Assembly: GCA_023247875.1 (NCBI GenBank)
Contig: JAHFFQ010000028.1
Location: 1 to 12,129 of the forward strand
Length of the DNA stretch: 12,129 nucleotides
From: Candidatus Omnitrophota bacterium
GTDB lineage: Bacteria; Omnitrophota; Gorgyraeia; Gygaellales; Profunditerraquicolaceae
Reading direction: 5' to 3'
The notes beneath the pieces are model-generated. The model ran no database searches and was not told the DNA's origin. It was given only the letters and a program-made list of their open reading frames with translations. The position numbers and the translations under genes were made by a program. Below, in pieces: positions 5,445-7,627 of the stretch (the first letter of the stretch is position 1; each line of letters starts with the position of its first letter).

Positions 5445-6529
5445 TGCCTTACAGTTTTGACCGCTTCCTTTATCAAGCTTAAGGGTATATTGCGCACGAT
5501 CTTAGGCCGGCCTATGCCGCGGAGCAAAACCAGTTTATTTTCTTTACCGATAAACTTTTTATCGCGGTAGTGCGCCCTTATGATCTTTTCAATTGGCACT
5601 CCCTTTAGCTTCACGGGCAGGCCGTAAAGCCGCAACAAATCGCTGACGCGTAAAACCGTCCCCAAATCAACCAACCCAAGGCGCCTGCTCAAATCCGCGG
5701 CAGCAACCATCCCTAATCCTACCGCCTGTCCGTGGTTATAAGCTTTATACCCGCCGGCAGCCTCAACAGCATGGCCTATAGTATGGCCAAAATTAAGCAG
5801 GGTCCTTAAACCTGAAAGCTCCTTTTCATCCCTGCTCACTATACCGGCCTTGATGGCGCTGCAGGTAGCGACTATTTTCTCCAGAACAGCAGGTTCTTTT
5901 CTAAGCACATCCTTATATTTATTCTCCAGGAGAGTAAATAGCCTCCGGTCTTTTATAACCGCGTATTTGATCACCTCAGCCATTCCGGAAGCAAGCTGCT
6001 TTTTATCCAGGCTTTTCAGGAAATTGACCTCGCTGAAAACAAGCCTGGGCTGATAAAACGCGCCGACTAAGTTCTTGCCCAGGTCAAGGTCCACCGCGGT
6101 CTTACCGCCGATGCTGGAATCCACCTGCGCAAGGAGGGTCGTGGGGATCTGCACGTAGCTGACTCCCCGCTTATAAAGGCTGGCAACAAATCCCGCCAAG
6201 TCTCCTATGACCCCGCCGCCAAAAGCAATAATAAAAACCTTCCTTGATTTATCCCACCCGGCCAGTTCTTTGAGCACCAGGCCTGCTGCCTCCAGGGATT
6301 TGCTTTTTTCGCTGTCAGGGACTATTTTAAAATGAGAATTAAATCCGTTCTTACGCAGCTCCTGGCGGAGTTTTTCTCCATATTTATTCTTAAGCCACAG
6401 GTTGGTGATGATATAAGCATCGGTGCCAACCCTCAACTTCAACAACTCCTGCCCCAGCCTGTTCAATATACCCCTGCCGATGATTATATCGTATGAGCGC
6501 GGGCCTAAATTAACTTTTATCCCATGCAT
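5441..6529 (-). CDS. aroB: 3-dehydroquinate synthase
   Basis: Second enzyme of the shikimate pathway: it converts DAHP to 3-dehydroquinate in the cytosol using NAD and a divalent metal. The length of 362 residues is typical. Visible motifs are PDSEKSKSL (71-79), the NAD loop FGGGVIGDLAGFVASLYKRG (103-122), PTTLLAQVDSSIGGKTAVD (129-147) and KNLVGAFYQP (152-161). The metal ligands are Glu185 in GMAEVIKYA, His249 in LNFGHTIGHAVE and His266 in NHGQAVGLGM. No key residue is missing. ATG at 6529 directly follows the TAA of the SH3 gene with no spacer. No other shikimate gene is present in the window, so it is separated from its pathway. Its stop overlaps the -35 box of the PilZ promoter. Confidence 0.97.
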   Translation of the reverse strand: MHGIKVNLGPRSYDIIIGRGILNRLGQELLKLRVGTDAYIITNLWLKNKYGEKLRQELRKNGFNSHFKIVPDSEKSKSLEAAGLVLKELAGWDKSRKVFIIAFGGGVIGDLAGFVASLYKRGVSYVQIPTTLLAQVDSSIGGKTAVDLDLGKNLVGAFYQPRLVFSEVNFLKSLDKKQLASGMAEVIKYAVIKDRRLFTLLENKYKDVLRKEPAVLEKIVATCSAIKAGIVSRDEKELSGLRTLLNFGHTIGHAVEAAGGYKAYNHGQAVGLGMVAAADLSRRLGLVDLGTVLRVSDLLRLYGLPVKLKGVPIEKIIRAHYRDKKFIGKENKLVLLRGIGRPKIVRNIPLSLIKEAVKTVRH

Positions 6530-7336
6530 TTAATTTAATGCCTCGATTACAGCGACCTGGATAATAGGATGTTTGCTGTCAAGCGGAGTGATCAATTTGC
6601 CGGTAACCTTGACCCTGTGGTAATTAAGGCTGTCTAAACCCTTACGGTTGCTTTTTAAGAAATATATTTTATTTTCCGCGGTGATCAACTTATGGGTAGC
6701 CTGGCGCCAAAGAACCACCCCATACGGGCTGACCGTGCCTTCGACAACAACCGGCTGCAAGGCCGTGGTTTGGCTTCCGATAGCCAAAGCCGGCGCAGGT
6801 TGAATAACCGCAATTTCTCCATTATCCTTATCCACAAATTTTTTGTGCACCCAGCCAAAACTCTGATGCACCGGCTCGATCTTATACCAGGCGCCTTTAT
6901 CCGCAAGGATACTTACAACAGAAAGCTTATCCGCTTTTCCCAGTATCCAGGAGTCCTCGCCGGGGCCAAGCCGGATATTCACCTTTTCACCGATGACCTT
7001 TGCATTCAGGCATTTTACCGGTTCAGAGGGAGAAGCAGTCCGGTCAATACATTCAACCAGGTTTTTCTTTATATAAGAGGGGGCTGTTTTTGGCAGGCGG
7101 ATCTTATACCAGTCATAAGCTTCCCGGACAACTTCTACAGACTGGCCCTTGGCCAGGGTACAGACGACGGGAGCGCCGGTAGTAGCGTCAACCCGGACAT
7201 TTATATTGTTGGCGTTGACCTTGCCGGTAAAAACGTGGCTTTGGCTATCGGAAGCCAAACCAAGGCCTTGCGGCCTGCAAACTAACAATTCCGCGAGAAT
7301 TATTGCGGCTATTATGTGTTTTAGGCTTAGCTGCAT
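6530..7336 (-). CDS. Secreted protein with two bacterial SH3 domains and an OB-like C-terminus
   Basis: 268 residues. The N-terminus (2-20) is a signal peptide core. Cleavage is plausible after GLA (residues 26-28), or a Cys20 in LLVC could be considered, though this is a poor lipobox. SH3b domain one is about 36-97 (TGKVNANNINVRVDATTGAPV, then DWYKIRLP) and SH3b domain two about 111-170 (NAKVIGEKVNIRLGPGEDS, then GAWYKIEPV, GWVHKKFV). After a linker, residues 196-268 (VVVEGTVSPYG to VAVIEAL) look like a small beta-barrel. SH3b domains usually bind peptidoglycan or envelope peptides, so an envelope role beside the SPOR gene is likely but inferred. Two inverted copies of a 35-bp palindromic repeat encode residues about 22-34 and 182-194. 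ATG at 7336 is 6 nt after the previous stop. Confidence 0.82.
   Translation of the reverse strand: MQLSLKHIIAAIILAELLVCRPQGLGLASDSQSHVFTGKVNANNINVRVDATTGAPVVCTLAKGQSVEVVREAYDWYKIRLPKTAPSYIKKNLVECIDRTASPSEPVKCLNAKVIGEKVNIRLGPGEDSWILGKADKLSVVSILADKGAWYKIEPVHQSFGWVHKKFVDKDNGEIAVIQPAPALAIGSQTTALQPVVVEGTVSPYGVVLWRQATHKLITAENKIYFLKSNRKGLDSLNYHRVKVTGKLITPLDSKHPIIQVAVIEALN
6757..6791. repeat. Palindromic repeat copy B, inside the SH3 gene
   Basis: A 35-bp sequence beginning GCAAGGCC and ending CCAAAGCC on the plus strand. Its core TTTGGCT-TCCGAT-AGCCAAA is a 7-bp perfect palindrome with a 6-nt loop. It matches copy A (7237-7271), inverted, at 34 of 35 positions. In the gene it encodes the linker PALAIGSQTTAL (about residues 182-193) between SH3 domain two and the C-terminal barrel, without breaking the frame. 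Confidence 0.85.
7237..7271. repeat. Palindromic repeat copy A, inside the SH3 gene
   Basis: Inverted partner of copy B: its minus strand reads like the plus strand of 6757-6791, with one mismatch (GGCCT for GGCCG) in 35 bp. It encodes QGLGLASDSQS (about residues 23-33), directly after the signal-peptide core, and may include the signal peptidase site. The two copies are read in opposite orientation, so they give different peptides. Confidence 0.85.
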
Positions 7337-7342
7337 GTATAG

Positions 7343-7627
7343 CTACTTCTTATCCTGGGCCTTAGGAGCGGCTTTGGCTGTTTCTTTTGCCCCGGGTGCT
7401 GCAGCAGGCGCGGCTGCTCCTTCCGCGGGTGTGGCGCTTTCAGCCTTCTCAGCCTTCTCCTTCTTGATCTTTATTCTCAGGGTTTTTATTTTAGGAAGGT
7501 TGTAAACCGGATCCCCTGCCTTCCACTTGCCCTTTTCCTGCATCTGCCTGATGCGTTCGGTGCGTTTTAATACCGAACGGGTCTTTTTGTCCTTTTCCGA
7601 AACGGTTAATGACGGATGTATTGACAT
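7343..7627 (-). CDS. Small basic protein of the Chlamydiae/Verrucomicrobia type, with Ala/Lys-rich tail
   Basis: 94 residues. The N-terminal 60 match a small basic protein family described in Chlamydiae, Verrucomicrobia and relatives: MSIHPSLTVSEKDKKTRSVL, then KRTERIRQMQEKGKWKAGD, then PVYNLPKIKTLRIKIKKEK. That family has been suggested to be ribosome-associated; this is unproven. The last 35 residues are a low-complexity tail of A, K, P, E and G. The frame is open further upstream to 7723, but an AAGGAGG placed 8 nt before the ATG at 7627 and the conserved MS.H.SL start fix this start. The ribosome site lies inside the last codons of the SPOR gene, with a 2-nt gap between genes. It is the best phylogenetic marker in the window. 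Confidence 0.85.
   Translation of the reverse strand: MSIHPSLTVSEKDKKTRSVLKRTERIRQMQEKGKWKAGDPVYNLPKIKTLRIKIKKEKAEKAESATPAEGAAAPAAAPGAKETAKAAPKAQDKK

Follow-up and report, generated by a model that had tools for sequence, protein, structure and literature searches.

A 42-nt double-hairpin element dispersed in Omnitrophota genomes and often read in frame within protein-coding genes, probably a non-autonomous mobile family

Protein-coding palindromes and an inverted pair in an SH3 gene

Palindromic elements within protein-coding genes have been on record for Rickettsia since 2000 and were subsequently described in Wolbachia, according to the references given in the relevant passages of PMC2229807. 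The Rickettsia palindromic elements (RPEs) have a length of 105-146 bp (PMC2229807, passage on element size), and at least one RPE host protein with an insert remains active, as passages of PMC10969869 and PMC2229807 report, with further passages on RPEs in PMC5656822 and PMC2694212. Among the REPs, the GTAG type, which goes together with RAYTs in REPtrons, forms hairpins of 20-40 bp that are sometimes intragenic and carry a tetranucleotide at one end, and the CGTC type consists of intragenic units for which no dedicated transposase is known; CGTC is also the tag of RPE-4 and RPE-6 (PMC3733652, in its parts on these repeats). The element that we describe here has in common with the palindromes of Rickettsia and Wolbachia that it is dispersed in frame in unrelated genes, with 97 of 124 copies in open reading frames (ORFs) of at least 150 aa and with inserts in aroK, murB, and asd. 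However, its unit is 42 nt long and consists of two separate hairpins, which is unlike RPEs, its tag at the one position tallied is RTGG instead of CGTC, and its hosts are Omnitrophota instead of Rickettsiales. The preliminary description of the locus had recognised in it the pattern of RPEs, which is appropriate for the behaviour of the element but not for its length and tag. We treat it as a family separate from the RPEs, set apart by comparison with the published descriptions of RPEs. With CGTC REPs the element shares the intragenic location and the lack of a known dedicated transposase, but it differs from them in its bulged stem and second hairpin, and CGTC is absent among 81 tetranucleotides. 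The assumption that the family may be undescribed in this lineage agrees with the open-licence literature on Omnitrophota or Omnitrophica, in whose accessible passages no description of such elements was found, an absence that is no proof. The words “palindrom” and “repeat” do not occur in an Omnitrophota genome survey (PMC10066038), nor does the word “Omnitroph” in a REP survey (PMC12306157).

The window, which is the whole analysed stretch of 12,129 nt from a Candidatus Omnitrophota contig (JAHFFQ010000028.1), contains a minus-strand gene (6530-7336) for a protein of 268 aa that combines a hydrophobic leader with two stretches of bacterial SH3 domain (PF08239), and both copies of the element lie in frame inside this ORF, as had been claimed. 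Direct reading confirmed that the 35-bp segments at 6757-6791 and 7237-7271 match at 34 of 35 positions in opposite orientation; they are part of inverted-repeat arms of 39 nt (6753-6791 and 7237-7275) that are 95% complementary (37 of 39 bases), and no longer inverted pair is listed for the window. Both copies contain a perfect core, TTTGGCT/TCCGAT/AGCCAAA (copy 1, 6769-6788, plus strand; copy 2, 7240-7259, minus strand), so that the feature was correctly seen as a 7-bp palindrome with respect to its core. Its extent, however, is larger, since a second hairpin adjoins the first; the 4-bp stem of this second hairpin, GGCC/GGCC, is intact in copy 2 and has one mismatch (C-A) in copy 1. A chance match had been considered very unlikely, and indeed the 20-nt core with up to three mismatches is present twice in the window and not once in 200 dinucleotide shuffles. 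Fitted to a model of 44 columns with a repeat unit of 42 nt, copy 1 spans 6751-6794 on the minus strand, which is the strand of the gene, and copy 2 spans 7234-7277 on the plus strand, opposite to the gene. The reading frame stays open through both: copy 1 reads PALAIGSQTTALQP (residues 182-195) in the linker preceding the C-terminal part of the protein, and copy 2 reads RPQGLGLASDSQSH (residues 21-34) directly after the hydrophobic leader peptide, which corresponds to the domain-boundary positions suggested before. In the single-strand fold of copy 2 both hairpins are present and the energy is below that of shuffled sequences (z -3.0 and -3.4), whereas the energy of copy 1 is only moderately lower than that of its shuffles (z -1.5 on one strand and -2.65 on the other) and its best minus-strand fold is not the two-hairpin form.

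The SH3 gene is matched in 26 of 27 genomes of the genus, and the element (E<=0.05) was found in two of these 26 loci, namely the window's own with its two copies and L114 with one copy in the same linker. Orthologues without the segments had been proposed as a check, and the element is indeed mostly absent from them; a clean insert of 14 residues was not found at either site, as the orthologous segments are variable at both places and the net gain in length is less than 14 residues. At 7234-7336 the element follows the leader directly and seems to replace the residues that end the leader in orthologues, and the signal-peptide cleavage site of the SH3 protein, if there is one, may now be encoded by the element. 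Elsewhere in the window, at 2458-2501, two 21-nt direct repeats (..AGAAACGTCCCTG) that are 86% alike and 23 nt apart lie between two minus-strand ORFs and are possibly another small repeat.

Unit, base pairing and distribution

The repeat unit of 42 nt corresponds to 14 codons and forms two adjacent hairpins, and the gapless alignment of 14 copies from the window's genome gives the consensus n GTGG C TTTGGCT ATCGGA AGCCAAA CCAC / GGCC CTCT GGCC / TG. From the same 14 copies the 44-column covariance model R1 was built, in which, compared with the terminal repeats of MITEs, hairpin 1 begins at column 2 of 44 and hairpin 2 fills the other end. Double-sided changes affect 8 of the 15 pairs in at least one of the 14 copies (mean of shuffles 3.5) and amount to 20 compensatory cells (shuffled 5.5), and the count of further pair types shows no excess (11 vs. 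10.6 shuffled). Among 83 distinct sequences, 13 of 15 pairs covary (shuffled 5.9), with 95 compensatory cells (shuffled 25.8) and 94.8% of the cells paired vs. 19 to 50% (maximum 50.4%) when the partner is slid, counts that lean to the structure as alignment A2 was fitted to the model, but with which the ungapped alignment A1 agrees. In hairpin 2 the outermost position is weakly supported, being paired in 48 of 83 sequences. Stem subfamilies with TTCGGCT/AGCCGAA and TTTGCCT/AGGCAAA are present in several genomes, and the paired changes in the stem alter the peptide, e.g., from GLASDSQS to GSASDSRS. Since these double changes replace encoded residues, it can be assumed that the base pairing is kept and not the peptide. 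Rfam gave no match for window positions 6500-7500.

A search for further copies in the source genome (1.38 Mb, 177 contigs), which had been suggested as a check, gave 16 matches at E<=0.01. The 14 of them at E<=2e-9 are the copies used for the model, and three additional ones with E values up to 5 fall on the opposite strand of known copies. With up to three mismatches the nearly palindromic core yields 15 matches at 12 places, three of which therefore count on both strands, and the reversed control pattern yields none. The relatives carry the element as well: it is present in 69 of 108 genomes of the same GTDB family (E<=0.001), with 42, 48, and 27 copies at E<=0.01 in the high-copy genomes G006, G007, and G063, respectively. 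Across the phylum, 384 sampled genomes include 67 with a match at E<=1e-6, 44 of them from the same family, 6 from the same order, 16 from the same class, and one from beyond. For the control, the phylum to which one Kerfeldbacteria assembly belongs, the only match at this threshold among 192 genomes is a single copy in that starting assembly. At least 112 stretches of named genome contigs contain the element, and 108 of the 112 are titled Omnitrophota or Omnitrophica; nearly all records with titles shown are metagenome assemblies. The other four are L162, whose copy has the same place and the same score as that in G025 of the window's family, L202 from a Kerfeldbacteria contig, and L225 and L227, which are titled only as bacterium. 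The single copy in L202 (7280-7305) lies on a contig of 7.8 kb and represents either a misbinned contig or a rare transfer. No copy was found in viral contigs with one degenerate pattern or in plasmids and phages with one 44-nt query each. The family is dispersed at low to moderate copy number in Omnitrophota.

Placement in genes, occupied and empty sites

The position relative to genes was determined for 124 copies on the 112 listed stretches, two more copies being cut by a contig end, with ORFs defined as stop-to-stop frames. Among the matches listed, the copies in ORFs of at least 150 aa amount to 78% compared to 84.8% of random positions, those in ORFs of at least 250 aa to 57% (71 of 124) compared to 69.6%, and 27 are located outside long ORFs. 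Placement in long ORFs is slightly rarer than at random positions and not commoner, and because the copies are found in ORFs nearly as often as random positions, genes are avoided little. Frame -0 of the consensus has a stop, whereas the other five of the six frames are open; as 42 is also divisible by 3, an insertion normally adds 14 residues. Frame -1 dominates among the 97 listed copies in ORFs, with 67 copies vs. 12 in frame +1, 10 in -2, 6 in +0, 2 in +2, and none in -0, and after merging sites with similar flanks it still accounts for 47 of 69 sites on all 112 listed stretches. From the availability of T[A/G]T in the five open frames, 26% (17.8 of 69) would be expected in frame -1, but 48 were observed, in a test that covers 80 of the 112 stretches and takes their 69 copies to be independent; copies in orthologous genes are not independent. 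Frame -1 encodes [KR]PEGxGLASDSQSH and is the most hydrophilic open frame with a consensus hydropathy of -1.26, the values of the others ranging from -0.50 to 1.32. We read this skew as selection against inserts that disturb the protein.

Pfam domains were matched in 32 of 34 host ORFs scanned, including that of the window. The hosts comprise NadA, an electron transfer flavoprotein, glutamate synthase, Asd, shikimate kinase (AroK), MurB, leucyl-tRNA synthetase, IF-2, UvrA, UvrD, LpxC, exonuclease VII, FtsK, and CO dehydrogenase/acetyl-CoA synthase, and two hosts are presumably LysS and CheA, judging from their domain sets. Copy C68 of the window's genome is more likely intergenic.

The clearest comparisons of filled and empty sites come from aroK, which is matched in 25 of 27 genomes of the genus. 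In 24 aligned loci, that of the window's genome is longer by 14 residues, G091 carries a tandem array at this position that includes a run of unknown bases, and 22 have no such insert, among them the relative G096, which is 88% identical. Aligned to solved structures, AroK as well as MurB shows a gap of 14 residues at the element, and in NadA a solved homolog has gaps of 11 and 1 residues where the element lies. An AlphaFold2 prediction of AroK with the insert, based on an alignment of 11 rows, reached a mean pLDDT of 89.8 and a pTM of 0.87 in the best of five models (60.0 in the worst), with a pLDDT of 65 for block 31-40, which covers most of the insert, and values below 70 elsewhere only at the last two residues. 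For asd, which is matched in 96 genomes, 30 loci were compared, of which four carry the element (L252, L253, L254, L256) and 21 show the flanking residues without an insert; the remaining ones comprise two with only a family B palindrome, two with other inserts, and one fragment. Insertion in frame into proteins is clean in the alignments of aroK, murB, and asd.

The family B palindrome mentioned for asd (ACCCCGTTAGAAA...TTTCTAACGGGGT) is unrelated to the 42-nt element, mostly 52-55 nt long, and reads PVRN...SNG or TPLx...TG. In the loci examined it has 14 copies, 8 of them in open frames of more than 300 aa, and one tandem pair is spaced at 57 nt, which equals 19 codons. In asd it occupies the same spot as the 42-nt element, which it adjoins in L071/L253. 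Copies are located in L255 and L257 (both 1850-1901), L071 (1440-1491), L183 (7573-7684), L147 (3422-3476), L172 (504-558), and L181 (4222-4276).

Several occupied sites are shared between records. In a polyketide-cyclase-like gene, seven records (L027, L061, which equals L157, L137, L152, L153, L166, and L180) share one site of insertion, with an element sequence that diverged but was kept; this insert is old and inherited, and possibly domesticated. In a fusion of electron transfer flavoprotein alpha and ferredoxin (L053, L067, L084, L159, L163, L189; Pfam assignment from L053 only) the element follows the CPFDAIR motif and precedes the next 4Fe-4S stretch, and in L067 it is nested in another copy. 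Furthermore, C4 and C144 of G000 hold two versions of one gene, which we take to be mnmG-like. In both versions the same degenerate element sits at the C-terminus and overlaps with the open frame that follows; this pair suggests a strain mixture in the assembly (contamination 4.03%).

Junctions, mobility and alternative explanations

Tandem copies occur at exact steps of 42 nt in several genomes, and other spacings between neighbors include 54 and 63 nt and, in one case (G006:C3), 77 nt, a distance not divisible by 3. Nested copies in L064 (which equals L205), L067, and L208 enter at the same point, GLASD^SQSH, and suggest TAT at the junction. The left and right ends of the copies agree above shuffles at columns 0, 1, and 2 (46, 54, and 62 of 75, p<=0.0005) and weakly at columns -4 to -2 (p 0.008-0.03). 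A duplication of 4 nt at the junction was considered and rejected, as the agreement at all four bases in 11 of 78 copies was also reached by shuffles (mean 4.8, maximum 11) and columns 3 and 4, taken singly, do not exceed shuffles; the first two junction bases agree in 47 of 78 (shuffled 19.9). Two junction subfamilies, TA and TG, can be distinguished. Moreover, columns 2, 30, and 44, which are the second base of the left junction, its partner in hairpin 1, and the matching base of the right end, agree jointly in 58 of 75 copies vs. 17.8 in shuffled ones. The tetranucleotide 5' of hairpin 1 is GTGG in 46, ATGG in 31, GTAG in two, and TTGG and GCGG in one each of 81 copies, and on the other strand GTGG or ATGG (77 of 81) is located directly 5' of the hairpin, with its complement at the other foot beside the junction. 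That a junction base matches an internal base hints at a choice of the target by base pairing, but the agreement is also compatible with conservation of the stem together with a requirement for identity at the junction.

Taken together, the family very probably represents a mobile, non-autonomous 42-nt element whose insertion into protein genes leaves the reading frame intact. A trans-acting enzyme would recognise the folded single strand; that the fold may be the recognised form follows from the subfamilies with different stems, each of which keeps its pairing although residues change. With somewhat less confidence, insertion would take place at T[A/G]T and leave a repeat of 2-3 nt. Copies in harmful frames or positions would be purged by selection, and the survivors would be found where the protein tolerates them, e.g., in loops, linkers, or at its ends. 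Mobility is deduced from sequence comparison, and recent movement is suggested solely where copies are near-identical. Against mobility it counts that many copies are old and inherited, that some of the near-identical G006 copies probably lie within a longer repeat, and that a tandem array can arise by slippage. The G006 copies in question (L077, L080, L083, L086, L089) are identical, lie in short ORFs with the flanks cctgca..atacgg / ..ctcgcaatgac where printed, and are probably inside a longer repeat that is dispersed between genes.

It is unlikely that the element is an ordinary REP mobilised by a RAYT, i.e., a Y1 tyrosine transposase, and merely intragenic more often than usual. Its small bulged hairpin with a tetranucleotide 5' on one strand would fit this type, Y1 genes are present in 90 of the 108 genomes of the family, and intragenic REPs are on record, although REPs are described as mostly intergenic (PMC3733652, passages on REP location), which does not correspond to the 78% of copies in ORFs. 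The tag differs too, as GTAG was found in two of 81 copies and another tag in 79, GTGG or ATGG in 77 of them. A link to the Y1 transposase had been our first mechanistic idea, which was given up as neither the surroundings of the genes nor the correlation with copy number nor presence and absence supported it. In 44 stretches around Y1 genes, some of which end early at contig ends, no copy (E<=0.01) was located within 1 kb of the 42 Y1 genes examined, which are part of those listed; three strong matches are about 2 kb away, in stretches extended to include them, and L307 has one weak match (E 2.3) within the Y1 gene. Copy number and number of Y1 genes are uncorrelated (Spearman 0.12, p 0.21), and 60 genomes have both the element and Y1, 9 the element without a detected Y1 gene, 30 only Y1, and 9 neither (Fisher p 0.19).

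There is a low probability that the copies arose and spread without any transposition, by template switching at hairpins or by local duplication. The exact tandem steps of 42 nt and the inverted pair in one gene could arise in this way, but the copies are spread over many contigs and unrelated genes, and neither the repeated junction dinucleotide nor the empty sites in relatives would be expected. Even less can be said for the idea that the peptide was selected as a useful linker or binding motif and that the likeness of the DNA is a by-product: one frame dominates with 67 of the 97 copies listed in ORFs, and the cyclase-like insert was kept in seven records, but long ORFs (at least 150 aa) read the element in five frames and from both strands, paired changes save the stems while residues change, and the hosts (LysS, IF-2, AroK, MurB, UvrA, LpxC, LeuRS, NadA, and others) have no evident common function. 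Chance, assembly error or ordinary protein conservation can practically be dismissed, for although metagenome assemblies can carry errors, no match arose in 200 shuffles, many different isolates and projects carry the element, and only two of 26 SH3 loci have it.

The non-autonomous mobile element thus remains the preferred reading, and a more far-reaching version of it can be proposed only tentatively. Elements of the IS200/IS605 type transpose as single strands, and their target is chosen by pairing with an internal guide. The Omnitrophota element similarly has a tetranucleotide 5' of the hairpin, complementary to the other foot beside the repeated junction, but differs in that no transposase is linked to it and that a repeat at both ends lies outside this scheme unless both cleavage sites are alike. 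It is conceivable, though rather doubtful, that the element is a self-guided single-stranded DNA transposon in which the pairing of RTGG with CCAY sets the T[A/G]T target, that its length of 42 nt, the absence of stops, and its hydrophilic peptide are adaptations, and that together with family B it forms part of a process common to the phylum.

Compared with the palindromes described before, the family presented here is separate and shorter and extends over a phylum of uncultured bacteria; it comes with orthologous sites that lack it, copies nested within copies, and subfamilies defined by two types of junction. What moves the element, how its target is chosen, and how often peptide segments of essential proteins begin as mobile DNA can now be tested. 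If the self-guided version was true, the length of 42 nt, the lack of stops, and the hydrophilic main frame would be adaptations to the genes of compact genomes, and the element and family B would represent a phylum-wide process that adds short peptides to essential proteins. Caution is advisable for inserts in Omnitrophota proteins, which may stem from such elements instead of being features of a domain.
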